A stretch of 64,000 nt of DNA from NCBI GenBank assembly GCA_028277985.1, contig JANQFG010000058.1, positions 1-64,000 of the forward strand, read 5' to 3'. Numbering within the stretch: position 1 is the stretch's first letter; the number at the start of each line of letters is the position of its first letter. A model generated the notes under the pieces. That model worked only from the letters and a program-made list of their open reading frames with translations, was not told where the DNA came from and did no database searches. The translations under genes and the position numbers were made by a program. This document shows positions 10,149-41,772 of this stretch, piece by piece. This DNA is from a bacterium. GTDB taxonomy: Bacteria; Desulfobacterota; DSWW01.

Positions 10149-10154
10149 CTTCGT

Positions 10155-22858: not shown

Positions 22859-23242
22859 GCGTACGAGTACCTTTGATAGCTTTTATATAGCCTTGCCTGC
22901 CGTCAGTGTAGAACCTACGATCTCATGTTGAAACATGGAATCCGCGTAAGGTGCGACTCCTGACCAACTACCCTAAACTCAGAGAGAACCTTTCCGATAT
23001 CAAGATAATTCAGAAGAAACCTGAAGGGAACTGAAGCAGTGATTGGCTCCTTTGTTTCGTTGTTATCTTGAGCTCTACCGATCTGGATAGACTGTCTGTG
23101 CATGTGTTCCCATACTCCTCGATACGATGCCACCAGGAAACAAGGGTCCTTACACGCTCGGGACCTATTGATATCGAGATGAATCTGGAAGCCTGACCGC
23201 GACAACAACAATCTTGACATGCCAAGAATCGGATGATATCAG
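22859..23242 (+). promoter_or_regulatory. Non-coding gap ending in the corrinoid-operon promoter
   Basis: No gene is supported between 22859 and 23320; minus-strand frames of about 100 codons have no domain or good start site. TTGACA at 23214-23219 and TATCAG at 23237-23242, 17 bases apart, form a good sigma-70-like promoter about 80 bases before the corrinoid protein start. No cobalamin riboswitch could be recognised. Confidence 0.5.
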
Positions 23243-23320
23243 GGTTGTAGTCGTTACTAACACGTGAATAGCTATCAATTTCCATCTGTAGTTGCTGTTC
23301 AGGAAAAGGTGAGAGGACGC

Positions 23321-23962
23321 ATGAGCGAGCGGGATCATTCAATTACTGATGCTATGGTGAACATGCGGGAAGAGGAGGTTGTGGAAGAAGCGAGGCAGAT
23401 CCTCGATGGAGGAGGCGACCCCCTGAAGCTCATGGAGCAGTGCAGAGAAGCCATGGGGATCGTTGGAAAACGTTTCGAGGAAGGCCAGTACTTCCTTCCG
23501 GAACTGATCCTGGCCGGCGAGATGCTGAGAACCGTCTCGACCATGGTCCAGGAGAAACTCGGCAAGGAATCACACGTCCAACGCTCCGGCAAGGTGGTGG
23601 TTGGCACCGTAGAGGGGGACATTCACGACATCGGAAAGGACATCGTCGTCTTCATGCTGGACGCCGGTGGATTCGATGTCCTCGACTTAGGGATCGACGT
23701 CCCGCCGGAGAAGTTCGTGGCCGCGATCCGGGATTTCAAGCCACAGGTCGTGGGCCTGAGCGGTTTCCTGACCCTCGCGTTCGACTCCATGAAGGTTACG
23801 GTGGACGCCATCAAGGAAGCAGGCTTACGGGACCAGGTGAAGATCATGATTGGTGGCGGACAGATGGACGAACATGTACGGGAGTACTGTGGAGCAGATG
23901 CTTGCGGAGCGGATGCCGTGGCTGCGGTAACCCTCTCCAAGAGTTGGATCGGGGGTGGATGA
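23321..23962 (+). CDS. Corrinoid (B12-binding) protein of methyltransferase systems
   Basis: From the ATG at 23321 (GAGAGG upstream) it has 213 residues: a helical cap (residues 1-90, with FLPELILAGEMLR) and a B12 domain with the lower-ligand motif DIHDIG (D100, H102, G105), VLDLGIDVPPEKF and GLSGFLTLAFDSMK, IMIGGGQ. This is the MtaC/MtbC/MtmC type, which carries a methyl group between a substrate methyltransferase and an acceptor methyltransferase. The next gene overlaps it by 8 bases and is the likely partner enzyme. No reductive activator (RamA-like) is seen nearby. Confidence 0.93.
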   Translation: MSERDHSITDAMVNMREEEVVEEARQILDGGGDPLKLMEQCREAMGIVGKRFEEGQYFLPELILAGEMLRTVSTMVQEKLGKESHVQRSGKVVVGTVEGDIHDIGKDIVVFMLDAGGFDVLDLGIDVPPEKFVAAIRDFKPQVVGLSGFLTLAFDSMKVTVDAIKEAGLRDQVKIMIGGGQMDEHVREYCGADACGADAVAAVTLSKSWIGGG

Positions 23963-25223
23963 AGTGGAGAAATCGCCTCAGGAATTATGCCGGGAGAGAG
24001 AAAAGCGAATCAACGAGGCGATTCAGCTGAAAGTACCCGACAGGGTGCCCTTTTTTCTTCCTTCAGGGCTCTTCCCGGCCAAGTACGTCGGGATGACCTA
24101 CGAGGAGGCCTTCTACGATCCTGAGAAATGGTTTTCGGCACACAAGAAGGTGAACCAGGATTTCGAGTCGGATCTGTACTGGAATCCGAGGTTTGGCATA
24201 TTGACATCGGGTCAAGCCTTCGAGGCGGTCGACTTCAAGCAGTTAAAATGGCCCGGCCATGGCGTATCCCCTGAACATTCGTTCCAGTTTGTGGAAGGGG
24301 AGTACATGAAGCCGGAAGAGTACGATGCATTCCTCGACGACCCTTCGGATTACGCCTTCAGGACCTATCTGCCCCGTGTGTGCGGGACTCTGGCCCCCCT
24401 TGCGATGCTTCCCCCGCTAAAAAGCATGCTGCTGGGATACGCGGCAGTGGGCCTGACCGCCATACTCGCCATACCGGATATCGCAAAGGCTTTCGAATCC
24501 CTTTACCGAGCAGGGCTGGAAGCCGCGAAATGGGACGCCGCGTCAACGCGATTTCACGACGAAATGGCGGACCTTGGGTTTCCGCCCCTTGCGGGTGACG
24601 CGGCGGTAAGTCTGGCGCCCTTTGACCTGGTCTCCGACTTCCTAAGGGGAATGCGAGGGACCATGCTGGATATGTATCGTCGGCCCGAACAGCTTCTTCA
24701 GGCCATCGAAAAGGTGGAGCCGCTGGTGATCAACGCGGCCTTAGCGGGCGCACATATGAGCGGGATCCCCCGTGTATTCATCCCACTGCACAGGGGGGCA
24801 GACGGGTTCATGTCCAACGAGCAGTTCGAGACCTTTTACTGGCCGGGTCTGAAGAAGCTACTCATGTCGCTGATCAATGCGGGACTGACGCCCTGCCCCA
24901 TTTTCGAGGGCTGCTACGATTCCAGATTGCCCTATCTCAAGGAATTGCCCAAAGGGAAGATCTTCGGGATGTTCGACGCGACGGACGTGTTCCAGGCAAA
25001 AGGAATCATCGGGGATAGGATCTGTATCGTCGGAAACCTGCCGTTGTCGTTGCTGCAGACGGGCACACTGGATCAAATCAGGGACTACAGCAAGAGGCTC
25101 ATCGAAGAAGTCGGCAGGGACGGCGGGTTCATCATGAGTGCCCGGGCTGCCCTGGACGAAGCGGATCCGGAGCGGGTCAAGGCGTGGGCAGACTTCACGA
25201 AGGAATATGGTGTGTATGGATGA
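23955..25223 (+). CDS. UroD-fold corrinoid methyltransferase-like protein
   Basis: A 422-residue member of the uroporphyrinogen-decarboxylase-like superfamily (RINEAIQLKVPDRVPFF, DMYRRPEQLLQAIEK, GKIFGMFDATD). Beside a corrinoid protein the expected role is methyl transfer to or from it (MtaA/MtbA type or a substrate demethylase, e.g. of methoxylated compounds). The zinc motif H-x-C of MtaA appears as E318-G-C320 (PIFEGCYD), so the metal site would be altered. The start is GTG 23955, overlapping the previous gene; GTG 23964 is the alternative. Confidence 0.85.
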   Translation: MDEVEKSPQELCREREKRINEAIQLKVPDRVPFFLPSGLFPAKYVGMTYEEAFYDPEKWFSAHKKVNQDFESDLYWNPRFGILTSGQAFEAVDFKQLKWPGHGVSPEHSFQFVEGEYMKPEEYDAFLDDPSDYAFRTYLPRVCGTLAPLAMLPPLKSMLLGYAAVGLTAILAIPDIAKAFESLYRAGLEAAKWDAASTRFHDEMADLGFPPLAGDAAVSLAPFDLVSDFLRGMRGTMLDMYRRPEQLLQAIEKVEPLVINAALAGAHMSGIPRVFIPLHRGADGFMSNEQFETFYWPGLKKLLMSLINAGLTPCPIFEGCYDSRLPYLKELPKGKIFGMFDATDVFQAKGIIGDRICIVGNLPLSLLQTGTLDQIRDYSKRLIEEVGRDGGFIMSARAALDEADPERVKAWADFTKEYGVYG

Positions 25224-25281
25224 GGGCTCGAGTGAACCTCACCGCCCTCAGACGTCAGAAGCGAAAGGAGCATTTCGCAAT

Positions 25282-25908
25282 ATGAACATCGTGGAGAAAT
25301 CAAAGGAAAAGTACCTCGAATACGAGAGGCGGCAGCAGGATATCCTGGATGTAGCTATAAGGATCTTCAATTCAAAGGGCTACCGATCGTCGACCACAGC
25401 GGAGATCGCCAAGGAGGCGGGCGTCTCGGAACCGACCATGTACAAGCATTTTCCCAGCAAGAAGGATCTCTTTCTCAAGTGTGTCCGCTCGATCGAAGAG
25501 GAATTGCAGAGGCAATACCACACCATTTACCTGGGGTATCGGGATCACGGGGATGAAGTGCGCTACATGGAGGAAGTGACGAGAGTCTACGTGGACTTTG
25601 TGAAGAACAAGCCCCACAAATCCATGTTCATGATCCATTTGCTCAGTTACAGGGAAGACCCTGATTTCTCCAGGGTGCTCGGCGATTGGATACGCTCGAG
25701 TATCATCGGGATCGAGAGGATACTGGCGAGTGCAAAAAAGAAGGGTAGAACAAAGAGCCCGCTCGATCCCTATACCCTCGCATGCCTCTACGTCAACCAG
25801 TATTTCACCATCGTGGCCTTGAAAGAATTCATGGAACCGAGCCGCTTCAAAGGGAAGGCGATCATCCAGTGGATGAGCGGGATGCTCGGCTTCCACACCG
25901 ATGCATAG
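25282..25908 (+). CDS. TetR-family regulator (paralogue 1)
   Basis: The 208-residue protein (ATG 25282) has a TetR HTH in TTAEIAKEAGVSEPTMYKHF and a FadR/AcrR-like C-terminal half. It is closely related along its whole length to the regulator at 31656-32294 (roughly three quarters identical by eye). It lies 58 bases after the methyltransferase gene, probably in that operon, and faces the tail of the flavin oxidoreductase whose promoter carries the TAGCGATAAGCTA operator. It or its paralogue is the best candidate to bind that site. Confidence 0.93.
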   Translation: MNIVEKSKEKYLEYERRQQDILDVAIRIFNSKGYRSSTTAEIAKEAGVSEPTMYKHFPSKKDLFLKCVRSIEEELQRQYHTIYLGYRDHGDEVRYMEEVTRVYVDFVKNKPHKSMFMIHLLSYREDPDFSRVLGDWIRSSIIGIERILASAKKKGRTKSPLDPYTLACLYVNQYFTIVALKEFMEPSRFKGKAIIQWMSGMLGFHTDA

Positions 25909-25959
25909 AGCGTCCCAGCGAATTTGTACTCGGCAGTCCAGAGGCTAGGTACTTCAGAG

Positions 25960-27183
25960 TCATGGTTGCGTCTTCTGCAGCAGTTCCCTGAAGTCGTCCT
26001 TGTAATAACAACGAAGAGGAAGCTCGTGGGCAATGGCTCCGAAGCACTTGTTGCAGTACTCGCAGCTTGCCTCATCGGTCTTGCCCTCTCTGATTCTTTT
26101 GACGAGGAACGGTTCCCGGATAAAGGGTCGGCAGATGGAGATGAAATGCGCGTCTCCCTTCTCGAGCACCTCCTCCATATGGGAGACCTTCCTCATGCCT
26201 CCAACGGCCATGAGCGGGATCTCGCCCAGGGCAGGCTTTATCGCCTTCGAATCCTCAAGATTGTACCCATCATAGACATCAAACTTGCCGACCATTCTTT
26301 GGAGTGAGATCCTGGACAAGAGCTTTTTCCAGGAAGAATGCATCATGACAAGCTCGTCCACCGGAACGTCACCTCGTATTGCGCTCATGAAGGAGAAACC
26401 CGACCCGCAGCTGTTCTCCACCGCATCTATGCCCATCTCCGCGAGCCACGCGATGTACGTTCTCGCGAGGTCCGGCGTGATTCCTGGATCAGGCGTGTGG
26501 TCGTTGGTGTTGAGCTTGATCATGAGGGGCATCCCCTCCGGCAGGGCTGCCCTGATCTGCCCAAAGACCTCTTTCAAAAACCGAAACATGTTCTCTTCGG
26601 AACCTCCCCATGCATCCCTTCTTCGATTGAAGAAAGGGGAGAGGAACTCGTTGATCAGATAGCCGTGGGCTCCGTGGATCTGCACACCGTCGGCCCCGGC
26701 CGCCACGGCCCTCCTTGCGGCGTGGCCGAATGACTCGATCACGACCTGAATGTCCTCTTCGGTCATCGCCCTAGGTTTCACGAAGAACAGGGAAGGGTCG
26801 CGCCTGTGACGGGATGGGGCCATTGGGGTTTCACCGATGACGTCTTTCGTGGTCTGCCGTCCCACATGAACCAACTGGAAGACGACCTTGCCGTCTGCCT
26901 GGTGAATCGTTTCTACCAGCCTCCGGAGTCCAGGAATCATTGCATCATTGTGAATGCCCATCTGGCTGTTCTTTGTGCGTCCCAGGGGGTGCACGTACAT
27001 GTACCCGGGGATGATGAGCCCAATCTCTCCCTTTGCAAGTGTCCTGTATCGGTTGATCAGGGCTTCGGTTACTGCGCCGTCTTCTGCCATGGCTTCATAA
27101 GTTGCGGAATGGACAAAGCGGTTCTTGACCTCCATATCCCTTAACTTGATCGGCCGGAAAAGAAGACGCTGGCTCCTGTCCAT
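25960..27183 (-). CDS. NADH:flavin oxidoreductase (old-yellow-enzyme family) with C-terminal Cys cluster
   Basis: A 407-residue OYE barrel: LFRPIKLRDMEVKNRFVHSA, active-site IHGAHGYLINEFLSPFFN and GGSEENMFRF. The C-terminus carries CEYCNKC followed 11 residues later by another Cys, a variant of the 4Fe-4S motif of dienoyl-CoA reductases, but the FAD/NAD domains of those enzymes are absent. It probably reduces an activated C=C bond. GGGAG is 6 bases before the ATG. It is transcribed away from the large operon, from a promoter sharing that operon's operator. Confidence 0.9.
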   Translation of the reverse strand: MDRSQRLLFRPIKLRDMEVKNRFVHSATYEAMAEDGAVTEALINRYRTLAKGEIGLIIPGYMYVHPLGRTKNSQMGIHNDAMIPGLRRLVETIHQADGKVVFQLVHVGRQTTKDVIGETPMAPSRHRRDPSLFFVKPRAMTEEDIQVVIESFGHAARRAVAAGADGVQIHGAHGYLINEFLSPFFNRRRDAWGGSEENMFRFLKEVFGQIRAALPEGMPLMIKLNTNDHTPDPGITPDLARTYIAWLAEMGIDAVENSCGSGFSFMSAIRGDVPVDELVMMHSSWKKLLSRISLQRMVGKFDVYDGYNLEDSKAIKPALGEIPLMAVGGMRKVSHMEEVLEKGDAHFISICRPFIREPFLVKRIREGKTDEASCEYCNKCFGAIAHELPLRCYYKDDFRELLQKTQP

Positions 27184-27256
27184 GGGCCACTCCCCGATTC
27201 CGTTGTCCAGACTTTCTGCGAAAGCTCCTAGGAGAAAACCAATGCCAAGTACTTAC

Positions 27257-27292
27257 TAGCGATAAGCTAGCAATAAGTTTTCTTTGCGTCAA
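27257..27292 (-). promoter_or_regulatory. Promoter of the flavin oxidoreductase with operator TAGCGATAAGCTA
   Basis: On the minus strand TTGACG (27292-27287) and TAGCTT (27269-27264) stand 17 bases apart. The -10 lies inside the 13-mer TAGCGATAAGCTA (27257-27269), itself part of a larger imperfect palindrome with ACTTA and TAAGT ends (27251-27278). The same 13-mer with one change occurs at 27501-27513 in the divergent promoter. This fits a TetR operator. Confidence 0.68.
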
Positions 27293-27347
27293 GTCTTTCC
27301 TTTCGGTTGTCCAGACTTGAACCATTCCGTAACGCCCCGTCCGGCGC

Positions 27348-27422
27348 AATCGGGGACAGCCACCGAATTAAACTATTGATTTCTATATGTTTTTGTCTTT
27401 AGTTCGGTGGCTGTCCGCGATT
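27348..27422. repeat. Inverted repeat (20-bp arms, one mismatch) between divergent promoters
   Basis: GGACAGCCACCGAA (27354-27367) and its exact complement (27403-27416) enclose a 35-base AT-rich loop; the arms extend to 27348 and 27422 with one mismatch. The loop is much richer in A/T than the surroundings. It resembles a small mobile palindromic element inserted between the two divergent promoters. It shares the GGGG(A/T)CAG arm end with the hairpin at 9197. No transposase is present nearby. Confidence 0.75.
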
Positions 27423-27494
27423 TCGGCATAGCGCATTGCCGGGATTCCTTTTGGCAACCGTCCAGAGGTGACCCCTTTTGGCTCAAAAAAAGAC

Positions 27495-27524
27495 TTGACA
27501 TAGCGAAAAGCTAATGTTAACCAT
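27495..27524 (+). promoter_or_regulatory. Promoter of the large operon with operator TAGCGAAAAGCTA
   Basis: TTGACA (27495-27500) is followed 16 bases later by TTAACC (27517-27522). The spacer contains TAGCGAAAAGCTA (27501-27513), a 12/13 match to the operator of the divergent gene. A second partial site, CTAGTGTGTACTAGCAATA, lies just downstream (27528-27546) and shares CTAGCAATA with the first region. GTTAACCAT recurs before the first DUF1302 gene, but the operator does not. Confidence 0.68.
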
Positions 27525-27621
27525 TGGCTAGTGTGTACTAGCAATATGGAAATAGACAATGTTTTCGCTCAATGATGGGTCCAGACTCTTGTCAAACGAG
27601 CAATCTACAATGGGGGAAAAA

Positions 27622-29178
27622 ATGAAACGCTCTTCATCCACTCGCATTGCCCTTCTCTGCGCACTTGCCGCGATCGGCTTTGCCGGGAATGCCTGGGCCT
27701 TCTACGTCGATGGGGGCCGGACCCTGGAGGTGACGGGCAAAGCCCAGACCCGGCTCTCGGTCCGGCTTCAGGATTCCGAGGGGTTCACGGCACCACCGAA
27801 CATCTCCGTGGGCAACCTGGTGCAGTGGCGGAATATCTTCTACCTGGAGGTGAACCACGACCTGGAGAAGCTCCAGGGGGAGCTCGATATCCTGAAGCCG
27901 CTGGACCGGCTCGGGGTGCGCACCAAGTACCACCTGGTGGCCCGGTTCATGTACGAAGCGATTTACAACGTGGGGCCCCAGGGGTTCAAGGATGCCCGGG
28001 ACAATGACAAGGAGAACATCGACAGCTTCAAGGCACAGTACGACCTGTGGGAGGCCTATGTGGACTTCTCCCGGGGGCCGGTGTTCCTTCGAATCGGCAA
28101 GCAGAACCTGGCCTGGGGCGAGACGGACGTGTTCCGCCTGCTGGACCAGATCAATCCCCTGGACAACACGTTCGGCGGCCCCTTTGAGGATCTGGACGAC
28201 CGGCGGATCCCGCTCTGGATGCTCCGTGGGAGCTACAACCTGGGGGTGGTGGGCCCGATCGATTCATTGACCATCGAGGGCTTCTGGGTGCCAGGCAATT
28301 GGGACGTGAAGATCTCGCCACTGGCCCCCTACGGGACAGCCTATTCGCCACCCCTGCCGCTCCTGCCTGCTCCGCTGCAGCAGCGGATCATCTATCCGGC
28401 CAAGGTCATGTCGAACAGCCGGTGGGGAGTAAGGCTGATGGCCATGCTCTGGGGCATGAACCTGTCGGTGGCCCACTACAAGACCTTCATGGACCTTCCG
28501 CAGCCCGTGTTCGTGATCGAGCCGAACCCGCCACCCATCGGCAGCCCCTATCAGGAGTTGCGCTTTGACGACATCCAGATCACGGGCGGTTCGCTCAATT
28601 ACTGGGAGTCTATGACCGACACGGTGATCCGTGCCGAGCTGGCCTGGTTCTGGAAAGAGGCGGTCCTGATTCCGGATATCAACATCCCGCTTCAGCCGCT
28701 GCCGATTCCGATTCCCGGGGTGCCGGGGCTTCCCCAGAACGGCCAGATCCCGGAGAAGGACTTCCTGCGGTGGATGATCGGCCTGGACAAGAACGTGTGG
28801 ATCCGGCCCCTGAACAAGACCCAGACCTTCCTGGTCTCGCTGCAGTACTTTGGCCAGTATGTGCCGAACTACGACGCCCGGATGCGGCAGGCGGTGCCCC
28901 TGTATCCGAATCCGACGGAATTCCCGGCCGTACGGGAGATGGAGGGAACGTTCACGATGCTCATGAACTCGACCTACCTGAGCGGGAAAGTGACGCCCCA
29001 GATGGTCCTGGCCTACGACGTTCGCGGGGCATGGTTGATCCAGCCTTCGGTGAACCTGTTGCGGGAGCCCTTCCGGCTGATGATCCAGTACAGCGCCATT
29101 GCGGGCAACTTCACCGGCTTCGGCGTGTTCCGGGACCGGGATCAAATAAGCTTCATTTTTAGCTACTTGCTCAATTGA
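27622..29178 (+). CDS. DUF1302 family outer-membrane protein (copy B)
   Basis: The ATG at 27622 (GGGGG 5 bases upstream) gives 518 residues with a signal peptide ending GNAWA near residue 25; the frame is open from 27559. The conserved blocks are the same as in copy A (LEVTGKAQTRLSVRLQDSEG, WGETDVFRLLDQINPLDNTF, EDLDDRRIPLWMLRGSYN). It is the first gene of the large operon, consistent with an outer-membrane entry or binding role for its hydrophobic substrate (inference). The copies differ mainly in the loop regions around residues 230-280 and 340-380. Confidence 0.88.
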   Translation: MKRSSSTRIALLCALAAIGFAGNAWAFYVDGGRTLEVTGKAQTRLSVRLQDSEGFTAPPNISVGNLVQWRNIFYLEVNHDLEKLQGELDILKPLDRLGVRTKYHLVARFMYEAIYNVGPQGFKDARDNDKENIDSFKAQYDLWEAYVDFSRGPVFLRIGKQNLAWGETDVFRLLDQINPLDNTFGGPFEDLDDRRIPLWMLRGSYNLGVVGPIDSLTIEGFWVPGNWDVKISPLAPYGTAYSPPLPLLPAPLQQRIIYPAKVMSNSRWGVRLMAMLWGMNLSVAHYKTFMDLPQPVFVIEPNPPPIGSPYQELRFDDIQITGGSLNYWESMTDTVIRAELAWFWKEAVLIPDINIPLQPLPIPIPGVPGLPQNGQIPEKDFLRWMIGLDKNVWIRPLNKTQTFLVSLQYFGQYVPNYDARMRQAVPLYPNPTEFPAVREMEGTFTMLMNSTYLSGKVTPQMVLAYDVRGAWLIQPSVNLLREPFRLMIQYSAIAGNFTGFGVFRDRDQISFIFSYLLN

Positions 29179-29214
29179 CGGCGACACGAACGAATACAAG
29201 AGGAGGGATCCAAA

Positions 29215-30513
29215 ATGAAGGAAACACGAAACCTCAGAACGTTCTTGTTCATCCTTGCGTTCTTTCTCTGCACCGCGCTGCAGGCCATTGCCGGTGAGCC
29301 ATCCGTAGAGGTGATCGACAAGACCAATTGGGAGAAAATCAAGGGGCTCGTGCCTGATCCCCTCCCGGAGTGGGTCAAGGAAGGCAAATTCATTCTCACC
29401 TTGCAGGACCTGAACTACGACCCGGTCGAGCACTTCATGCCCTTTGCCGCGGAATCTCGCTCGGCCAACGTTGGGAGGTTCGATCTCAGCGAAGAGAACG
29501 AAGTCGTGGATGCGAATACTGGCAAACTGGCCGTACACCTTGAGGGCTTTCCTTTCCCCAAGGTTGACCCGGCCGATCCGAAGGCCGCCGTGAAGGTCAT
29601 GTACAATAAACAGTATTTGCCTTACGTGATCGGGTACAAACGCTTCACCACCATTGTTTCCTGGGTGGGCCGTGGGGGTCTGGAGAGAGAGGTGGAGGCC
29701 CTTTTTCGTGATTTCTATTTCACCGGATTCCCCGGCGCGAATAAGCATTCGAATCCAAAGGACATGGAGAGGTATTCGATCATCTCGGTGCGCAGTCCTT
29801 ACGATCTGGCCGGCACATCGGTCATGCTCTGGCGGTACCTGGCCAATAAACAGGACGTAAATTTTAGCTACGTTCCCGCAATCCGCAGGGTACGGCGCAC
29901 GACCCCGGCCAACCGCTCCGATGGGTTTCTGGGGTCGGATTTTACGCAGGATGACATCCTCGCCTATGACGGCAAGATACCCGCCTTTGAGTGGAAGCTC
30001 GTTGGAAAGAAAGACGTATTGGGGAACTTCCACTCACCGGACCCAGTACGGATGACCCAAACCGGGAAGGGGGAATGGCTGATGGACCAGAATGTGGATC
30101 CCATCCGTTACGGGTTTATGGAAGAAAGCACAACCCTTGAGCCCTGGTGCCCGACCAATACGGTCTATACGAGGCGCCCGGCGTGGGTGATCGAAGCCAA
30201 GTCGAAAGATCCCTATTACAACTACGGGATCCAATACATATATGTGGATGCCGAACTCTGGGCGCCCCTGTATAAACTGGTACACGACCGGACGGGCAAT
30301 TTCTGGAAGTACATTATGGTCACCATGGTGGGCCTGGAGAGTCAGGACAAGAAGAGCAAGCTTCTGGTAGCCGTGGATCACTTGATCCTGGATCCTCGCA
30401 GGGACCATGCCACCTATCTGAAGATCACGAATCCTGACAGCGAGTTCGTCTTCTTTGCCGATCTCGATGTGAATGACTTCTCTCTGGCCGGGTTCCAGAA
30501 GTACTGCAAATAG
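29215..30513 (+). CDS. DUF1329 family exported protein (copy B)
   Basis: A 432-residue partner of copy B of DUF1302, with a signal peptide ending near QAIAG (residues 1-27) and no lipobox. The blocks YVPAIRRVRRTTPANRSDGF, SPYDLAGTSVMLWRYL and the end DFSLAGFQKYCK match copy A, but overall similarity is lower than between the DUF1302 copies. Identical length and ends suggest duplication of the module and then faster change in this protein, perhaps to suit another ligand. GGAGGG is upstream of the ATG. Confidence 0.87.
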   Translation: MKETRNLRTFLFILAFFLCTALQAIAGEPSVEVIDKTNWEKIKGLVPDPLPEWVKEGKFILTLQDLNYDPVEHFMPFAAESRSANVGRFDLSEENEVVDANTGKLAVHLEGFPFPKVDPADPKAAVKVMYNKQYLPYVIGYKRFTTIVSWVGRGGLEREVEALFRDFYFTGFPGANKHSNPKDMERYSIISVRSPYDLAGTSVMLWRYLANKQDVNFSYVPAIRRVRRTTPANRSDGFLGSDFTQDDILAYDGKIPAFEWKLVGKKDVLGNFHSPDPVRMTQTGKGEWLMDQNVDPIRYGFMEESTTLEPWCPTNTVYTRRPAWVIEAKSKDPYYNYGIQYIYVDAELWAPLYKLVHDRTGNFWKYIMVTMVGLESQDKKSKLLVAVDHLILDPRRDHATYLKITNPDSEFVFFADLDVNDFSLAGFQKYCK

Positions 30514-30522
30514 GAGAACATC

Positions 30523-31611
30523 ATGAGAGAATTTGATGTTTGTATCATCGGATCCGGGCCGGCAGGGGCTGGGGCTGCAAAATCTTTGACCGGGTCAGGC
30601 TTGAAGACGGTCATCCTGGAGAAGCAGAGGCTCCCCCGCTACAAGATGTGCAGCGGCATGCTCTTTCCTGAGGCGCAGCAGATCATTCGGGATCATTTCG
30701 GAAGGATCCCGGAAGAGATTCTCTCCGACCCGAAAGAATTCAATGGCATCCGGGTCTATCCCACCAAAGAAACTCCGCTCGACAGCCCTACAGAGATCCC
30801 GATGCCCTCTCGTCTCTTCAGCAAGTTGCCGGACCTTGCGGGCTGTCTGTTGAACGTTTCCCGTGGCGGGCTGGATTCCTGGTTGTGCGCCCAATCCGAC
30901 GCGAACGTCTTGGACGGGTGCAGGCTGCTGGACATGTCCTTGGACAACGGACACGTGCAGGTAAGGTTCGAACGGGACGGGGAGACCCTCGAAATCAAGA
31001 GCCGTTTTCTCGTGGGGGCGGACGGAGGCCAATCCCGGGTCAGGAGGGTGTTCCTGTCCGATCCTTCCAAGCCGATCATGCAGATTCCGGCATACGAGGA
31101 ACATTACATCGGAGAAGTGGATCTGGACGTGGAGAACTGGTTCTATGCCTTCCTGGATCCGGAGCTCTCCCAGGGGTTTGCGAGTTTTCACAAGAAGGAC
31201 AACCGGCTGATTACGGTGTCAGGGGCTCTTCAAGGGAACTCTGCGAAGGCTTACCTGAATCGATTCAGAGCTCACCTCGAAAGCGTGCATGGTCTCAGGG
31301 CCGAGGAATGTGTGCACAGCTACGGGATCGTGCTTACGGACATGTGTTTTCGGGGTGATTTTCGTCTCGGGAGAGAGAATATTCTGCTCTGTGGCGAGGC
31401 GGCGGGCTTCATGCGGTTCTTCACGGAGGGAATCACCACTGCATTGATTACGGGTCGCAAAGTCGGAGAGTCTATCCTTGAAAGCATGAAAACGGGAAGA
31501 CAGCCGCTAGAGATCTATGCTCGAGCGGTGGCTAGGGAGATGGACTTCATCATGGAGCAACACAAACAGTACTCCGAAATCCAGAGCGCCGGCGATTCCT
31601 TGTTCGTATGA
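30523..31611 (+). CDS. FAD-dependent oxidoreductase, geranylgeranyl-reductase-like
   Basis: A 362-residue flavoprotein: GxGxxG in VCIIGSGPAGAGAAKSL, then LEKQRLPRYKMCSGMLFPEA, the second FAD site VGADGGQSRVRRVF and GRENILLCGEAAGF. This is the pattern of the geranylgeranyl reductase / PHBH-like group, which reduces isoprenoid double bonds in several lineages and serves as an electron carrier in others. The position after DUF1302-DUF1329 mirrors the FAD enzyme of module A, though the two flavoproteins belong to different subfamilies. AGGAG precedes the ATG, 9 bases after the previous stop. Confidence 0.85.
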   Translation: MREFDVCIIGSGPAGAGAAKSLTGSGLKTVILEKQRLPRYKMCSGMLFPEAQQIIRDHFGRIPEEILSDPKEFNGIRVYPTKETPLDSPTEIPMPSRLFSKLPDLAGCLLNVSRGGLDSWLCAQSDANVLDGCRLLDMSLDNGHVQVRFERDGETLEIKSRFLVGADGGQSRVRRVFLSDPSKPIMQIPAYEEHYIGEVDLDVENWFYAFLDPELSQGFASFHKKDNRLITVSGALQGNSAKAYLNRFRAHLESVHGLRAEECVHSYGIVLTDMCFRGDFRLGRENILLCGEAAGFMRFFTEGITTALITGRKVGESILESMKTGRQPLEIYARAVAREMDFIMEQHKQYSEIQSAGDSLFV

Positions 31612-31655
31612 GAATCCCGGGGATCCGGTTGAATTCTGTATATGGAAGTCTTCAC

Positions 31656-32294
31656 ATGAACATCGTTGAGAAATCCAGGGGGAAGTACCTGGAGTACGAG
31701 CAACGACATCAGGATATCCTGGATGTAGCCGTAACGATCTTCAATTCGAAAGGCTATCGATCCGCCACCACGGCAGAGATCGCCAAAGCGGCAGGGATTT
31801 CCGAACCAACCATGTACAAGCACTTTCCCAGCAAGAAAGATCTCTTTCTCAAGTGTGTCCGCTCGATCGAAGAGGAATTGCAGAGGCAATATCGCACGCT
31901 CTATCGGGAGTATCAGGATCGCGGAGATGAAATAAGCTACATGGAAGGAGTGACGAGAATCTATGCGAGCTTTGTGAAGAACCAGCCCCACAAGTCCATG
32001 TTCATGGTCCACATGCTCAGCTACAGAGACGACCCTGATTTCGCGAAAGTGCTCGACGCTTGGATAGGAGCGAGTATTATCGGGGTCGAGAGGATACTGG
32101 CGAGCGCAAAGAAGAAAGAGAAAATAAAGAGTCCACTGGATCCTTATACGCTCGCCTGTCTGTATGTGAACCAGTACTTCACGATCGTGGCGCTGAAGGA
32201 ATTCATGGAACCGAGTCGTTTCAACGAAGATGTTCTACTCACGTGGGTACGCAGCACCCTCGGCGTGGATGTAGCGTTCGGTGAGCACTGGTAG
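31656..32294 (+). CDS. TetR-family regulator (paralogue 2) inside the large operon
   Basis: From ATG 31656 (GGAAG 8 bases upstream) it has 212 residues. HTH: TTAEIAKAAGISEPTMYKHF. It is nearly identical to the 25282 regulator through the HTH and most of the ligand domain (e.g. shared PSKKDLFLKCVRSIEEELQR), differing mostly in the last 20 residues. As an early gene of the operon with the TAGCGAAAAGCTA operator in its promoter, autoregulation is likely. A nearly identical recognition helix means both paralogues could bind the same operators. Confidence 0.93.
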   Translation: MNIVEKSRGKYLEYEQRHQDILDVAVTIFNSKGYRSATTAEIAKAAGISEPTMYKHFPSKKDLFLKCVRSIEEELQRQYRTLYREYQDRGDEISYMEGVTRIYASFVKNQPHKSMFMVHMLSYRDDPDFAKVLDAWIGASIIGVERILASAKKKEKIKSPLDPYTLACLYVNQYFTIVALKEFMEPSRFNEDVLLTWVRSTLGVDVAFGEHW

Positions 32295-32336
32295 TGAGAG
32301 CCCTTCTGGTCTGGCAGGGAAGGAGGAGGACAACAC

Positions 32337-33401
32337 ATGGAGAAGAGGTCGGGCATCCGAAGGGTTCTGTCCGAATGGGGCGCCCGTCTCTCTCTCGAGC
32401 GTTGGGAGCGACAGATATTGGACCTGGAGAGTCGGTTCATCGAAAAACACCGACCAAGGATGAGGCTTTCTCTTCCGTCAAGCCCTGTTCGTCAGGAAGG
32501 CATCATCCGCTACCGGGATATGGCGGGCTGGAAGCCTATGCGTGATGAATGGAGGGAGATGCGGGACATCATGCCCTTGTACAGGGAAGTGATCCGCTCA
32601 GCCAGGGCTACTTTTGAGATTTCAGCGAAGAACGGGGATCTTTCGGCCCATAGCGCACCGGTCTCGACTCCTTTCTGGCAAGAATTCGAAGGCGTCGCTA
32701 ACGCCCATGGCGTTGACCTCATCGGATATACCGCTGTGCCGAGGGAGTTCATCTTCAAAGAAAAGGGAGTTCTTTTCGAGAATGCCATTGTTCTGGGGAT
32801 GGAAATGGAAGCGGGCCCAATTTCGCGGGCGCCCAGCTACGAAGCAGGGAAAGAAACTCTCCGCGTCTACCAAGACCTCGGAGACGCTGTTATCGAACTC
32901 GCAATATGGCTACAAGAGCGAGGCGTGCGGGCTCAACCCGTCCATCCCTATGGGGGCACGACTCTCTTCCCGTTGATGGCGGCGAAGGCAGGCCTTGGGA
33001 CCCCGGGGCTTCACGGCCTCCTGATGTCGAAGCAGTTCGGTCCACGCCAGCGCCTCACCATCATTTCAACCGATGCCCAGCCGATCCCGCCACCTCGGGA
33101 GAACTCGATGGCCGACATTCGGGACTTCTGTGAGGTCTGTCGACAATGCATTCGAGCCTGTCCTGCCGGAGCTTTTCATGATCCGCCGATTAAGCAGCAT
33201 GGGAACAAGATTGTGACCCACATAGACAATACGAAATGCTACCCCTACTTTGCCCGGTTCAAGAGTTGTTCTGTCTGTCTGAAGATTTGTGCGCGTGTGC
33301 TCGAAGAATCCGGAATGCTGGCCGGGGGGGTGAATGAGAGCAGGGGGAGCCAAACGGAAGATGGAAATAACCATGGGCGAGACGATAACAAAGCTGTTTG
33401 A
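32337..33401 (+). CDS. QueG / reductive-dehalogenase-like Fe-S protein
   Basis: The 354-residue product starts after a strong AAGGAGGAGG. Eight Cys supply two 4Fe-4S clusters: C265, C268, C271, C275 (CEVCRQCIRACP) and C301, C311, C314, C318 (KSCSVCLKICA). The middle region (HGVDLIGYTAVP, HPYGGTTLFPLMAAKAGLG, GLLMSKQFGPRQRL) is like the cobalamin-binding part of dehalogenase and QueG relatives. It has no Tat signal, so it is cytoplasmic and probably an electron carrier or reductase for the pathway. It resembles 12212-13246 in type. The last ~10 codons overlap the next gene. Confidence 0.75.
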   Translation: MEKRSGIRRVLSEWGARLSLERWERQILDLESRFIEKHRPRMRLSLPSSPVRQEGIIRYRDMAGWKPMRDEWREMRDIMPLYREVIRSARATFEISAKNGDLSAHSAPVSTPFWQEFEGVANAHGVDLIGYTAVPREFIFKEKGVLFENAIVLGMEMEAGPISRAPSYEAGKETLRVYQDLGDAVIELAIWLQERGVRAQPVHPYGGTTLFPLMAAKAGLGTPGLHGLLMSKQFGPRQRLTIISTDAQPIPPPRENSMADIRDFCEVCRQCIRACPAGAFHDPPIKQHGNKIVTHIDNTKCYPYFARFKSCSVCLKICARVLEESGMLAGGVNESRGSQTEDGNNHGRDDNKAV

Positions 33402-35157
33402 GAGTCGCGTGTCAAAGACGCCCCAAGAAGTTGCCTTGTGCTCCAAGGAGGACGATGACTGGGCGTCCATCTCCTGGGCATCGTATGGGGAGAGGGTTGA
33501 TCGGTTTGCCAGGGGATTGATCGCTGCGGGTGTGGGCAAAGGCGACAAGGTTGCACTGATCGGCTCCAACACCCCGGAGTGGTTCATTGCGGATATGGCG
33601 ATCATGACGATGGGTGCCGTGTCCGTGCCCGTTTATGCGACCAACAGCGGAGATCAGATCTGTTACATCCTGAATCACTCGGAAAGCAAGGTATTTATCG
33701 TAGAGGAGGTCGGCTACTTTCAAAGGATCGAGAGCCTGCTAGAAAAGGTGCCTCAGCTCGAGCGGGTAGTTCTCTTGAGCGGAGATGCGCCTCCGGGGGA
33801 AAGCATCCTCATCGATTCTGATGGTTTCGCAGAAACAGGGAAAGAGGTTTCGGAAGAAGATCTGAAACAGGTTCGGGATGCTGTGACCCCGGACTCCGCT
33901 TCGACCTTCATCTACACCTCGGGGACAACCGGTCCACCCAAGGCCGTCATACTCACGCATAAGAACAGTGTTGCGGCTGCAAAGAACGTGCACCTGACAA
34001 CGGAGATGAGCGCCAAGGAGAAGATCTCCTGCTCCTACCTGTCACTTGCCCACGTGGCGGAAAGGTGCGTAAACCTGTTGTCCCCTCTGCTGGATGGAAG
34101 AACTGTGTATTTCATGGGCGGGTACGAGAAGTTCGCCGAGTACCTGACGGAAATCCGTCCTACGATGTGGTTGGGCGTGCCGCGGGTCTGGGAGAAACTG
34201 TACGAAGGCGTGATGGGCAATCGAGCTACCATGTCCCCCCGAAAGCAGAGGATCTTTGATTGGGCGCTGCGGATGGGCGGTGAATGCAATTGGGCCATGT
34301 ACGACGGAACAAGGATATCTCCTCTGTTGAAGATGAAACACGCAGTCGCTCGTCGCCTGGTGATCGATAAGGTGCGGGCCGCCCTGGGTTTGAATCGCAC
34401 AGAGATCTTTGTTACCGGCGGGGCCCCGACGTCGAAAGAGATCCTGGATTTCTTCATGTCCCTGGGCATCTGGCTGCAGGATGTGTACGGGCAGACAGAG
34501 GGGCACGGAACCACCAGCTTCGCGACCAAGGATGCCATTCATTTCGGTTCCGCCGGAAAGCCGTACCCCCTGGTTGAGGTTCGTATCGCGGATGACGGCG
34601 AGATCTTGGTGCGGGGAGACAGCGTCTCGCCCGGATACTACAAGGACCCGAAACTGACGGAAGAGACCTTCCGAGACGGCTGGCTTCATTCCGGGGACCT
34701 CGGAAACCTTGACGAAAATGGGTTCCTTTGGATCACGGGTCGCAAGAAGGACATCATCATCACCTCGGGTGGCAAGAATATCACACCCTCGAAGATCGAG
34801 ACCGCGCTCATGGGCTTTCCGTTAATCGAGCACGCGGTTGTCGTGGGCGACGGCAAGAAGTTCCTTGGTGCCCTGCTCACACTCAGCGAAGAAGAAGCGA
34901 GAAAGACGTGTGAAGACCACGGGAGCGAAGGCAAGGGTCTCGAGGGTTTGATTGTGGACCCGGCAGTCACGAAACAGGTTGAGCAGCATGTGACCGAAGT
35001 AAACGCGAAGCTCTCACGGGTAGAGCAGATAAAGAAATACACGCTTCTGCCAAGAACCTTTTCTATTGAGAGTGGGGAGCTTACACACATCCTGAAGATA
35101 AAGCGCAATGTGGTTCAGAAGACCTATGCGAACGAAATCGAGACCATGTATTCATAA
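33373..35157 (+). CDS. AMP-forming long-chain acyl-CoA synthetase
   Basis: From ATG 33373 (GGAA 6 bases upstream; ATG 33361 is possible) it has 594 residues, usual for bacterial FACL. Motifs: TFIYTSGTTGPPKAVILTHK (P-loop), QDVYGQTEGHGTTS, WLHSGDLGNLDENGFLWITG, GRKKDIIITSGGKNI, and the C-terminal ELTHILKIKRNVV with the acyl-adenylate Lys. It would activate the free carboxylate of the pathway substrate as a CoA thioester with ATP. It overlaps the preceding gene by 29 bases, so translation is coupled. Confidence 0.94.
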   Translation: MGETITKLFESRVSKTPQEVALCSKEDDDWASISWASYGERVDRFARGLIAAGVGKGDKVALIGSNTPEWFIADMAIMTMGAVSVPVYATNSGDQICYILNHSESKVFIVEEVGYFQRIESLLEKVPQLERVVLLSGDAPPGESILIDSDGFAETGKEVSEEDLKQVRDAVTPDSASTFIYTSGTTGPPKAVILTHKNSVAAAKNVHLTTEMSAKEKISCSYLSLAHVAERCVNLLSPLLDGRTVYFMGGYEKFAEYLTEIRPTMWLGVPRVWEKLYEGVMGNRATMSPRKQRIFDWALRMGGECNWAMYDGTRISPLLKMKHAVARRLVIDKVRAALGLNRTEIFVTGGAPTSKEILDFFMSLGIWLQDVYGQTEGHGTTSFATKDAIHFGSAGKPYPLVEVRIADDGEILVRGDSVSPGYYKDPKLTEETFRDGWLHSGDLGNLDENGFLWITGRKKDIIITSGGKNITPSKIETALMGFPLIEHAVVVGDGKKFLGALLTLSEEEARKTCEDHGSEGKGLEGLIVDPAVTKQVEQHVTEVNAKLSRVEQIKKYTLLPRTFSIESGELTHILKIKRNVVQKTYANEIETMYS

Positions 35158-35193
35158 ACGAGTAAAGGGAATGACTCGGGAAGGAGGCATTCG

Positions 35194-35652
35194 GTGGCCA
35201 ATATGGAGATGACGGGAAAAAAGATAGCCGACGGGGAGTTCCCCGTGGAGAGAGGGAAGATCCGGGAATTCGCGAGCGCGATCTGTGACCCGAACCCGGT
35301 GTACAGGGATCGGGAATATGCGAGAGGTAAGGGATTCAAGGACGTTCTCATGCCCATAACCTTTCCGGGCACCTTCACGTTCTATCTTGGGTCGGAAAAC
35401 GCGGTCATGGAGATGATGGAAACGCTGGACATGGATGCGGGCAAGAGCGTTCACGGCAGCTTTGAAGTGATCTACGAAAGGCCTGTCTGTGCAGGGGAAC
35501 CGCTGAGGATGGAAGTCGTGGTCGGCAGGATCTACCAGAAGGAGGGGAAACGCGGGGGTGCGATGACCTTCGTAGAAATGGATATCCGTTTCTACGATGC
35601 AGAGGACAAACTTGCGCTCACGGTCCGAAACGAGTTCATCGAGAGAGGCTAA
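35194..35652 (+). CDS. MaoC-like hot-dog protein, non-catalytic half
   Basis: AAGGAGG 6 bases before GTG 35194 fixes the start; 152 residues. The fold is MaoC dehydratase N-terminal type (FASAICDPNPVYRDREYARG), where the hydratase signature normally ends in His; here Tyr takes the His place. The next gene has the intact signature. Heteromeric (R)-hydratases such as HadAB or ChsH1-ChsH2 combine one structural and one catalytic subunit, which these two probably form (inference). Confidence 0.84.
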   Translation: MANMEMTGKKIADGEFPVERGKIREFASAICDPNPVYRDREYARGKGFKDVLMPITFPGTFTFYLGSENAVMEMMETLDMDAGKSVHGSFEVIYERPVCAGEPLRMEVVVGRIYQKEGKRGGAMTFVEMDIRFYDAEDKLALTVRNEFIERG

Positions 35653-35662
35653 GGAGCACGTT

Positions 35663-36094
35663 ATGGGAGAAGCCGCACGATACTTCGAAGATGTGAAGGA
35701 ACAAGAGGAGCTTCCTTCTATCGAAATCACCGTGACCCGGACACACATCGTCAAATTCGCAGGCGCAGGAGGGGATTTCAACCCGATTCATCATGACGAG
35801 GAATATGCCAAGTCTCTGGGACTTCCCTCGGTCTTTGCCATGGGTCTCATGCACGGAGGATTTCTGTCAAGAGTCGTAACCGAGTGGGCCGGTGACGGAA
35901 ATGTGAAGCGATACAAGATCCGGTTCGCAGGCATTGTCTGGCCGAACGACACCCTCACGTGCAAAGGCCGGACGGTTCGAAAATACCAGGAAGGCGGAGA
36001 GAACCTCGTAGATTGCGAGCTGGCTGTCGTGACGCAGAATGGTGAGAATGCGATCGTAGGCGAGGCTACGGTTTCACTGCCCGGAAAGGGCTGA
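35663..36094 (+). CDS. MaoC-like enoyl-CoA hydratase, catalytic half
   Basis: The ATG at 35663 follows AAGGAG by 7 bases; 143 residues. The hydratase signature AGAGGDFNPIHHDEEYAK carries the Asp and His of (R)-specific enoyl-CoA hydratases, and VFAMGLMHGGFLSR follows as in the family. It would hydrate the 2-enoyl-CoA made by the acyl-CoA dehydrogenase encoded 20 bases downstream. It is paired with the upstream half lacking the His. Confidence 0.9.
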   Translation: MGEAARYFEDVKEQEELPSIEITVTRTHIVKFAGAGGDFNPIHHDEEYAKSLGLPSVFAMGLMHGGFLSRVVTEWAGDGNVKRYKIRFAGIVWPNDTLTCKGRTVRKYQEGGENLVDCELAVVTQNGENAIVGEATVSLPGKG

Positions 36095-36113
36095 ACAAAG
36101 AGGAGGTCGATCC

Positions 36114-37259
36114 ATGGACTTCAGTTTCACGGAAGAGCAAATCATGTTTCGCGACTCGGTGGAAAAATTCGCACAGAAGGAGATCGCCCCGGGCGTGGAC
36201 GAACGGGAGAGAAAGGCGGAATTCTCGTATGAAGTATGGAAGAAGATGGCGGATTTTGGCCTCGCCGGGCTTACCATTCCGGCGGATTACGGCGGTGGCG
36301 GTGCGGACGCGCTCACAACCGTCCTTGCCATGGAAGCCTTTGCAAGGGGCAGCAGGGATATGTCCATCTGTGTTGTCTGGGGCTCTCACCTTCTTCTGGC
36401 CGCCATGCCGATCGCGGACCTCGGCACGGAAGAACAGAAGAAGAAGTATCTGCCCAAGATGGCCTCCGGAGAGTGGATCGGGGCCATGGCGTTGACCGAA
36501 CCGGATGCAGGCACGGATGCGACGTCCCTGAGGACGACGGCGAAGAAGGATGGAAATCATTACCTGCTGAACGGGAACAAGACCTATATTTCAAACGCTC
36601 CCATCGCAGATGTGCTCACTACCTTCGCATCCGTAGACCTCGCCAAGAGGGCCCAGGGGTTGACCTTGTTCATCGTGGAGACGGATTCGCCGGGGCTTAC
36701 GCTCGGGAAGCCTCTGGAGAAGTATGAATCCCATTCTTCGCCAACAGGGGAGATCTTCTTTGAAGATTGCAAGGTCCCGGTTGAGAACCTCCTGGGCGGT
36801 GAGGGGGAGGGGTTCCACGCCATGGTTCACTCGCTGGGATGGGAACGCATCGCTTTCGCTCCTTTTGTGGGATTGATGGAAGCGGACCTGAACAGCTGCA
36901 TCGAGTACGCGAAAGAGAGGAAGCAGTTCGGCAAGCCCATCGGCAAGTTCCAGCTTGTGCAGGCCATGCTCTCGGAGATCAAGATGGACCTCGAGGCTTC
37001 GCGATATCTGGCTTACAACCTGGCCTGGAAGAAAGACCAGAATGAATGGATTGGAATGGATGCTGCCATTGTGAAGACCTTCATCACCGAGGCCTATGAG
37101 CGGTCGGCACAAAAGGCGGTCCAGATATTCGGAGGCAATGGGTGCATGCGCGAATACCCGATTGGCCGAAGCCTGTGGGCAGGGAAGATGGCCACCATTG
37201 GTGGAGGAACGTCACAGATTCAGCGGACGATCATCGGAAGGATGCTGACCGGGCTGTGA
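36114..37259 (+). CDS. Acyl-CoA dehydrogenase of the isovaleryl/long-chain type
   Basis: A 381-residue ACAD: WIGAMALTEPDAGTDATSLR, LNGNKTYISNAP, GFHAMVHSLGWERIAFAP, RKQFGKPIGKFQLVQ, FGGNGCMREYPIGR. The MCAD-type Glu is Gly here (IGGGTSQIQR), but E244 in LGWERIAFA matches the Glu of isovaleryl-CoA and long-chain dehydrogenases, so it should be active. It contrasts with the Asp-type enzyme at 7761. Introduces the 2,3-double bond before the MaoC pair acts. Electrons would go to ETF, not encoded here. Confidence 0.94.
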   Translation: MDFSFTEEQIMFRDSVEKFAQKEIAPGVDERERKAEFSYEVWKKMADFGLAGLTIPADYGGGGADALTTVLAMEAFARGSRDMSICVVWGSHLLLAAMPIADLGTEEQKKKYLPKMASGEWIGAMALTEPDAGTDATSLRTTAKKDGNHYLLNGNKTYISNAPIADVLTTFASVDLAKRAQGLTLFIVETDSPGLTLGKPLEKYESHSSPTGEIFFEDCKVPVENLLGGEGEGFHAMVHSLGWERIAFAPFVGLMEADLNSCIEYAKERKQFGKPIGKFQLVQAMLSEIKMDLEASRYLAYNLAWKKDQNEWIGMDAAIVKTFITEAYERSAQKAVQIFGGNGCMREYPIGRSLWAGKMATIGGGTSQIQRTIIGRMLTGL

Positions 37260-37323
37260 TGTGACGCAAGGCGATTCGGACGCAGGTACTATCCGCGGAC
37301 AGGTTGAAAGGAGGACGGAATCG

Positions 37324-38508
37324 ATGGAAACGATTCGAGGAAAGGCGGCAATCGTGGGGATCGGGGAGGTCCCGACCGGACACTTTCCGGAGCGGTCCTA
37401 CATCGAGGCCGCGGTGGGTGTTGCCGAAATGGCGATCAGGGATGCAGGGATACCCAAGGAGGAGATCGACACGGTCATACCGATCGGCGTGTTGGCCAAT
37501 CCGCTGGACAACGCGAACATGGTCTGCTCGTGGATGATTGAAGAACTGGGGATGGGCAAGACGGCCAAGAGCAACTTCCAGGTCATGTCCGGGGGGTCGA
37601 GTTCCGCCAGTTCCCTCAAGGTCGCGATTTCGCTCGTCCTCACGGGATTCTCCAAGGCCGTCCTGGTGGTGCACTGCGATCGCTTTGGAACCGGGGTGGA
37701 TCTGTCCTCTGCACTCACTATGTTTGCAAAGGCATCGATCAACCAGGAATACGAAGCCCCTTACGGATTCAGCCAACTCGCCCTTGCAGGTTTCCTTCAA
37801 CAGCGATACATGTACGAAACCGGGGCAACGGAGAGACAGATTGCTGCCGTTGTCGAGTCCCTTCGAAAATGGGCTGCCCTGAATCCGAACGCCATGCTGA
37901 GGAAGCCCAGGACTGCGGACGAAGTGCTGGCGTCCAAGATGATCTCGTCCCCCGTGAGAAAGCGAATGATGAACATCCTTGCAGACGGTGCGGCAGCATA
38001 CATTGTAACCACCGCTGAAAGGGCAAGGGACCTGACCGACACGCCGGCCTATGTCCTCGGGCTGGGATCCAGGTGTACGAATTTCACAGTAACCCAGCAA
38101 CCCCAGAGTTTCTTCGACGCCTGGGGACCGGCAGCGGATGAAGCATACGAAATGGCGGGTGTGAGGCCGGAAGATGTGGATGTTGCGGAGATCTACGACG
38201 CCTTTCCCACCTTCATCCTTATTTCGATGGAGATTCTTCGCCTGTGCAAGAGAGGAGAAGCGGGCAAGCTCGTGGAGGAAGGGCACACCTCTCCCGGAGG
38301 CAAGCTGCCCGTCTCAACGAACGGGGCCATGATGGCCCAGGGCCACACAGGCGCTGGCGGGGGGATCGCCATTCTGGTGGAAGCGGCCCGTCAAATCATG
38401 GGCAAGGCAGGGGAACGACAGGTCAAGGATGCAAAAATCGCCATAGAAACAGCGTCCGGAGGTGTGGGGATGGACTTTCACGTCGGAATCCTGGGCTCGG
38501 AGGGCTAG
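37324..38508 (+). CDS. Thiolase-like protein (Ltp2/SCPx type) lacking the nucleophilic Cys
   Basis: From ATG 37324 (GGAGG upstream) it has 394 residues with thiolase-fold marks AAIVGIGEVPTGHFP, AEIYDAFPTFILI and the GHTGAGG segment with His. Where thiolases have the acylated Cys (VNxxCxSG) it reads VMSGGSSS (residues 87-94), so Claisen-type thiolysis is not expected. Ltp2 of steroid side-chain degradation also lacks thiolase Cys residues and is an aldol-lyase acting with a DUF35 partner; the next gene is DUF35. A retro-aldol cleavage of a tertiary or branched 3-hydroxyacyl-CoA is therefore plausible. Confidence 0.86.
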   Translation: METIRGKAAIVGIGEVPTGHFPERSYIEAAVGVAEMAIRDAGIPKEEIDTVIPIGVLANPLDNANMVCSWMIEELGMGKTAKSNFQVMSGGSSSASSLKVAISLVLTGFSKAVLVVHCDRFGTGVDLSSALTMFAKASINQEYEAPYGFSQLALAGFLQQRYMYETGATERQIAAVVESLRKWAALNPNAMLRKPRTADEVLASKMISSPVRKRMMNILADGAAAYIVTTAERARDLTDTPAYVLGLGSRCTNFTVTQQPQSFFDAWGPAADEAYEMAGVRPEDVDVAEIYDAFPTFILISMEILRLCKRGEAGKLVEEGHTSPGGKLPVSTNGAMMAQGHTGAGGGIAILVEAARQIMGKAGERQVKDAKIAIETASGGVGMDFHVGILGSEG

Positions 38509-38512
38509 GAAA

Positions 38513-38926
38513 ATGAGCGAATACAAGAAGCCACTTCCTTTGATAACCGAGTTGAGCAAGGTCTTCTACGATGGCTGTAAGGAAGAGAAGCTCCTGTACC
38601 AGCAATGCAAGGACTGCGACGAAGTCGTCTTCTTCCCGAAGCAGCTGTGCTCCAACTGCATGGGCCACAATCTGGAATGGAAGGAGTCAAAGGGAAAGGG
38701 AAAGATACACACGTTCACCGTGACCTACGATTCGGCCCCTCCGGAGTTTGCAGCCGATTGCCCTTATTCGCTTGCGATTATCAACCTGGACGAGGGGTTC
38801 AGCATGATGAGCAACATCGTAGAGTGTGACCTGGAGAAGATCACCTGCGACATGCCGGTCGAGGTCGTTTTTGAGCCGATCACGCCTGAGATCACCCTGC
38901 CAAGATTCAGGCCCGCCAGGGGATAA
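38513..38926 (+). CDS. DUF35 OB-fold zinc-ribbon protein, partner of the thiolase-like protein
   Basis: A 137-residue protein with the rubredoxin-like zinc ribbon CKDCDEVVFFPKQLCSNC and an OB-fold of about 80 residues (GKIHTFTVTYDSAPPEF, YSLAIINLDEGFSMMSN). DUF35 proteins form complexes with thiolase-like enzymes and supply part of the acyl-CoA site. It starts 4 bases after the thiolase-like stop, consistent with equal production. The open frame extends upstream, but ATG 38513 begins the conserved part. Confidence 0.9.
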   Translation: MSEYKKPLPLITELSKVFYDGCKEEKLLYQQCKDCDEVVFFPKQLCSNCMGHNLEWKESKGKGKIHTFTVTYDSAPPEFAADCPYSLAIINLDEGFSMMSNIVECDLEKITCDMPVEVVFEPITPEITLPRFRPARG

Positions 38927-38956
38927 ACAGATATCCGTGAAGGGCAGGAGGTGAGC

Positions 38957-40327: not shown

Positions 40328-40379
40328 TCAGGTGAGATTTGAACCGTCTCATTGGACACTAGCAGAAGGAGCAAAGAAG

Positions 40380-41753: not shown

Positions 41754-41772
41754 CTTGGGAGAGGTGAGGGGC

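Follow-up and report, generated by a model that had tools for sequence, protein, structure and literature searches.

The divergent promoters in front of an Old Yellow Enzyme (OYE) gene and of a long operon with acyl-CoA genes raise the question of which DNA element and which regulator could place both transcription units under common control. The window analysed here is the whole stretch of 64,000 nucleotides of contig JANQFG010000058.1. It contains two genes encoding TetR-type regulators, each in an operon close to the intergenic region in question:

23264-23962, plus strand: B12-binding protein, upstream of tetR1; likely start ATG at 23321
23955-25223, plus strand: UroD-like methyltransferase, upstream of tetR1
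25282-25908, plus strand: tetR1, with a TetR_N domain; last gene of the B12-binding/UroD/tetR1 operon
25960-27183, minus strand: OYE family flavin oxidoreductase (PF00724), downstream of promoter L
27622-42579, plus strand: long presumed operon, from DUF1302 to an enoyl-CoA hydratase-like gene
31656-32294, plus strand: tetR2, inside the long operon

The first genes of the long operon encode a DUF1302 protein, a DUF1329 protein, a geranylgeranyl-reductase-like FAD protein, TetR2, an Fe-S protein and an AMP ligase, and they are followed by genes for two MaoC-like proteins, an acyl-CoA dehydrogenase, a thiolase, a DUF35-type protein, two OYEs and the enoyl-CoA hydratase-like protein; the MaoC, DUF35 and hydratase names are in part what we take them to be from general knowledge of such sequences. 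TetR1 and TetR2 are ~76% identical, have the same recognition helix (SEPTMYKHF) and belong to the TetR family, with TetR_N (PF00440) scores of 65.1 and 63.8 bits at a cut-off of 24. All NCBIfam equivalog models for named TetR subfamilies (FasR, FadR, AcrR, BetI, KstR and others) stayed far below their cut-offs, the best being FasR with 57 of 330 bits. A search of positions 25000-30000 against Rfam gave no match.

The first-pass annotation had proposed a 13-bp inverted repeat as the operator in both divergent promoters, and both copies were indeed found, each with the structure TAGC-N5-GCTA:

27257-27269, plus strand: copy 1, TAGCGATAAGCTA; spans the -10 of the OYE promoter (minus strand) and overlaps the left half of the putative operator O-L
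27501-27513, plus strand: copy 2, TAGCGAAAAGCTA; placed between the -35 and the -10 of the long-operon promoter

The placement of the copies relative to the predicted promoters was as annotated, and no further copy with up to 2 mismatches is present in the window. A motif scan extended this to the genome: only these two exact matches were found in 8.85 Mb, and the next matches have 1 mismatch. Pairs of 13-mers alike at 12 or more positions arose in 37 of 1000 dinucleotide shuffles of the intergenic region, and pairs that were in addition inverted repeats with 4-bp arms in none of 1000. In shuffles of the whole window, at least two matches to the 13-mer (up to 2 mismatches) were seen in 13 of 100. 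The pair thus exceeds chance in part; it is somewhat unusual, but it was picked post hoc.

A stronger common feature is the likeness of the promoters themselves. A repeat search revealed an inverted repeat of 51 nt with 71% complementarity, formed by 27248-27298 and 27489-27539. When both are oriented in their direction of transcription, the promoter of the OYE gene (L) and that of the long operon (R) are identical at 36 of 51 positions, a value reached by none of 1000 shuffles (shuffle maximum 31). Both have the order AAAGACTTGAC, an extended -10 (TGCTAGC in L, TGTTAAC in R) and then GCTAGTnnGTACT, which is the element that coincides in the alignment; R has the palindrome GCTAGT-GTGT-ACTAGC. 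Scanning the window with TAGT-N4-ACTA revealed another such palindrome just downstream of a TTGACA (23214) and a TGATATC, in front of the B12-binding/UroD/tetR1 operon. This promoter (T) is identical to R at 30 of 51 positions in register, which was reached by 2 of 1000 shuffles. The common control proposed for the two divergent units is retained, and the tetR1 operon, which the first-pass annotation had missed, is added as a third unit. The predicted promoters all match the composite TTGAC-N15-TGnTAnC-N7-TAGTnnnTACT:

23214-23258, plus strand: promoter T; TTGAC(A) from 23214, extended -10 TGATATC at 23234-23240, exact composite match
27248-27292, minus strand: promoter L; TTGAC(G) from 27292 leftwards, extended -10 TGCTAGC at 27272-27266, exact composite match
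27495-27539, plus strand: promoter R; TTGAC(A) from 27495, extended -10 TGTTAAC at 27515-27521, exact composite match

The extended -10, TGnTAnC, precedes the putative operator in all three, and TAGT starts at exactly base 35 from the TTGAC of the -35 in each of them. The promoter boxes are predictions; a scan for the sigma-70 consensus and for terminators reported none. The putative operators are:

23248-23259, plus strand: O-T, TAGTCGTTACTA; perfect, over the predicted start of the tetR1 operon
27247-27258, minus strand: O-L, TAGTAAGTACTT; degenerate in its right half, covering the start site predicted for the OYE gene
27527-27542, plus strand: O-R, GCTAGT-GTGT-ACTAGC, with the core TAGTGTGTACTA at 27529-27540; perfect, covering the start site predicted for the long operon

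The candidate element thus stands at the promoters of both regulators' own operons (O-T and O-R) and, in degenerate form, at that of the target OYE (O-L). O-L is the weakest site; it is supported by its position and by the likeness of L to R, not by the quality of its palindrome.

Further elements were seen in this region. The three extended -10s contain a self-complementary hexamer GNTANC (GATATC at 23235-23240, GCTAGC at 27266-27271 and GTTAAC at 27516-27521), and in each promoter the centre of this hexamer is 16 bp upstream of that of the operator. Between promoters L and R there is a strong hairpin (27345-27425) composed of GGGGACAGCCACCGAATTAAAC and its mirror, with 28-nt arms that are 89% complementary and a DNA fold z-score of -8; it resembles a REP- or MITE-type repeat, and no second copy was found within the window. 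GTCCAGACT occurs three times (27205-27213, 27309-27317 and 27579-27587), always in the intergenic region and leaders, and twice inside a 17-nt repeat, TTCSGTTGTCCAGACTT, flanking promoter L on both sides; these repeats are possibly a second regulatory element or the trace of a duplication.

In the 8.85 Mb genome, which was scanned with patterns and not with a matrix, TAGT-N4-ACTA occurs at 5 sites, compared with 92 for the reversed pattern as control, and two of the five are at the promoters of the two tetR-containing operons. The composite is confined to this locus: it has 3 exact matches in the genome, all of them here, and the next best match has 3 mismatches. The composite was derived from L, R and T themselves, so the informative part is the lack of other matches. 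The bare palindrome is less confined, with three of its five sites elsewhere (C95, C146 and C153); these look unrelated, as they have different neighbour genes and lack the composite promoter. A matrix built from sites of other species only ranked O-R first and O-T fourth among ~64,000 window positions and scored O-R at 10.67 versus 0.94 for the weak O-L, although its sites had been chosen with the pattern first seen in O-R and locus L070 and the test is therefore only partly independent. A literature search for the literal motif string found none, which is weak evidence.

Two side observations concern the rest of the genome. The nearest other composite match, with 3 mismatches (L113, G000:C99:66496-66540), is located directly in front of a different TetR gene; it includes TTGGTTACTAACCAA, which is probably the operator of that regulator itself. 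A small gene resembling an XRE-type HTH regulator has the perfect palindrome TAGTATATACTA 28 bp upstream (L097 3968, G000:C146:87967), probably a case of unrelated autoregulation.

Orthologues of the TetR pair with 49-55% identity were found in L070 (Candidatus Zymogenus), L071 (a MAG labelled Proteobacteria) and L081 (same phylum), and more distant ones in L092-L095; relatives sought among viral contigs and plasmids were not found. The operon TetR, AMP ligase, MaoC, acyl-CoA dehydrogenase, thiolase and DUF35 is kept in L070, L081 and L092. DNA flanking tetR contains exact TAGT-N4-ACTA sites in L070 (6539 and 7289), L071 (9918) and L081 (8089 and 8898). The palindromes of these loci are AGATAGTAGGTACTATCT, AGATAGTAGTCACTAAC and ATTAGTGGTCACTAAT, always of the form TAGT-N4-ACTA; L070 and L081 have two copies each, one in front of tetR and the other between this gene and that of the ligase. 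For the pattern as set in advance, these 5 sites in 3 loci compare with 0.03 expected and were matched by none of 2000 shuffles. Because R and L070 are where the pattern was originally seen, tests on them are not independent; those on T, L071, L081, L092 and L094 are. Of the distant loci, L092 has the palindrome at 10153 (exact) and 7360 (1 mismatch), L093 at 2989 (1 mismatch) and L094, reversed, at 5467 and 8653 (both exact) and 7480 (1 mismatch). The putative operator is hence conserved beside the orthologous regulators in L070, L071, L081, L092 and L094 and, with 1 mismatch, in L093. Its position relative to TTGAC varies from base 21 to 28, and in L081 it lies upstream of the -35; in L070, L071 and L094 it covers the -10 region. 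An unguided palindrome search of the orthologue flanks also ranked TAGT/4 first, with 3 of 7 loci, a result not beyond shuffles, 36 of 60 of which reached at least 3 loci.

The helix SEPTMYKHF is kept exactly or nearly in the closest TetR orthologues. The palindrome was not found in relatives with the helix TEKTMYRHF (L033/L082 and L095), which fits the assignment of the palindrome to TetRs of the SEPTMYKHF type. Upstream of OYE homologues in other genomes, neither the 13-mer nor the palindrome was convincingly present; there was one weak match to the palindrome with 1 mismatch, in L102. A third paralogue of this TetR (42%) is encoded at L082 (G000:C274; L033 2331-2385) close to genes for a ketoacyl-synthase-III-like protein and a second DUF1329 protein, and the adjoining promoter has GCGGAAAAGTGTAATGTTAATC, which is close to GCGAAAAGCTAATGTTAACC of promoter R.

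The proposal that the TAGCGAWAAGCTA pair (TAGC-N5-GCTA) is itself the common operator of the TetR paralogues would agree with its two exact genomic copies both lying in the divergent promoter region and with a paired inverted repeat that no shuffle of the region reproduced. But the copies are out of register (counted from TTGAC, copy 1 is at bases 24-36 and copy 2 at bases 7-19), the 13-mer was not found in promoter T (23214-23259), and the promoter regions of the TetR orthologues contain none with up to 2 mismatches; the sole such copy in the orthologue loci (L092 11103) lies within a coding region. Besides, the left half of the TAGT-N4-ACTA operator (GCTAgt) makes up part of copy 1. Because its position differs between L and R and it is absent from T and from the orthologous promoter regions, the 13-mer was rejected as operator, a role we regard as highly improbable. 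The pair is probably not the main operator and would contribute, at most, additional GCTA half-sites. Such half-sites might allow a second dimer to bind cooperatively upstream of a primary TAGT-N4-ACTA site, as in a QacR-like dimer of dimers. The spacing of GCTAGC and GCTAGT in promoter L (11 bp apart, bases 22 and 33), the GCTAAT upstream of GCTAGT in promoter R and the additional dimer upstream of one operator of FadRSa (PMC6449355) point in this direction, but the geometry differs between L and R and T has nothing comparable, so that a second dimer seems unlikely; it would overlap with a TetR regulon based on TAGT-N4-ACTA and not exclude it.

A common promoter type or a duplicated promoter could account for the joint sequence without a specific regulator. 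The 71% identity of L and R over 51 nt is what is expected of duplicated DNA, and the -35 and extended -10 are shared by the promoters; however, other species also have the palindrome next to orthologous tetR genes, there at different distances from the -35, and the combination of promoter and operator is confined to this locus in the genome, which makes this explanation very doubtful.

With high probability, then, the locus is a local TetR regulon of three units, with TAGT-N4-ACTA as putative operator, repression by TetR1/TetR2, autoregulation and release by a pathway intermediate. What the DNA shows directly is the sites, with their fixed position, rarity and conservation next to orthologous tetR genes; from this we infer binding, repression, autoregulation and the inducer. 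The regulon would comprise the OYE gene, the long DUF1302-to-hydratase acyl-CoA operon with tetR2 and the B12-binding/UroD/tetR1 operon. TAGT-N4-ACTA would be occupied by TetR1 and/or TetR2 dimers, which would block initiation, also at the promoters of their own operons. The predicted start site lies under the operator in L, R and T (the -10 in L070, L071 and L094), which suits steric repression, and since each tetR belongs to an operon whose promoter has the putative operator, negative autoregulation is to be expected. An intermediate of the pathway would release the dimers, plausibly an acyl-CoA that the enzymes of the cluster produce; the nature of these enzymes suggests an inducer of the acyl-CoA type, as for FadRSa (PMC6449355). 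The first-pass view that one regulator, most likely the TetR paralogues, ties the two promoters together thus stands for the joint design and falls for the operator sequence. It is conceivable, if rather improbable, that the two TetRs, which have the same helix, differ in diverged ligand-binding domains and compete for the sites, thereby feeding two metabolite signals into the three units, with L as an extended dimer-of-dimers site.

An autoregulated local TetR regulon is a well-known, routine kind of genetic switch. FadRSa of Sulfolobus acidocaldarius is a TetR family repressor of an acyl-CoA/fatty acid cluster with a 16-bp dyad motif, four genomic sites, one of its targets being the control region of its own gene, and an acyl-CoA ligand (PMC6449355). 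The likeness was drawn on these features: a TetR beside an acyl-CoA cluster, a dyad motif, very few genomic sites and a site, here predicted, at its own gene. FadRSa differs in being archaeal, with one tetR gene and a known acyl-CoA ligand, whereas here there are two paralogues and the ligand is only inferred. EdcR of Caenibius tardaugens, a divergently expressed TetR family regulator of the oestradiol pathway, has the palindrome TnnCnnTACnAnTnGTAnnGnnA, which is weaker at the regulator's own promoter (PMC8700777). In both systems a single palindrome recurs in several promoters of a catabolic cluster and covers their -10 regions, but TnnCnnTACnAnTnGTAnnGnnA is unrelated to TAGT-N4-ACTA, and pathway and divergent regulator differ as well. 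In TetR/tetA, two 15-bp operators lie between tetR and the efflux target tetA (PMC3511530). Palindromic, dimer-bound operators in divergent promoters are the common feature, with binding predicted here, but the tetR genes of this locus are inside the target operons. The nemA product of E. coli is a reductase of the OYE family. Its gene is the target of NemR, a TetR family protein (PMC6790063), and the likeness is that of a TetR-family repressor controlling an OYE-family reductase, as predicted here; there is no sign of orthology, and no NemR model was among the NCBIfam matches.

In sum, the analysis provides a concrete candidate operator and regulator for an uncharacterised acyl-CoA/DUF1302-DUF1329/OYE cluster and links a third operon, with corrinoid and UroD-like methyltransferase genes, to the same proposed control. 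The motif can be used to find the regulon in related genomes.
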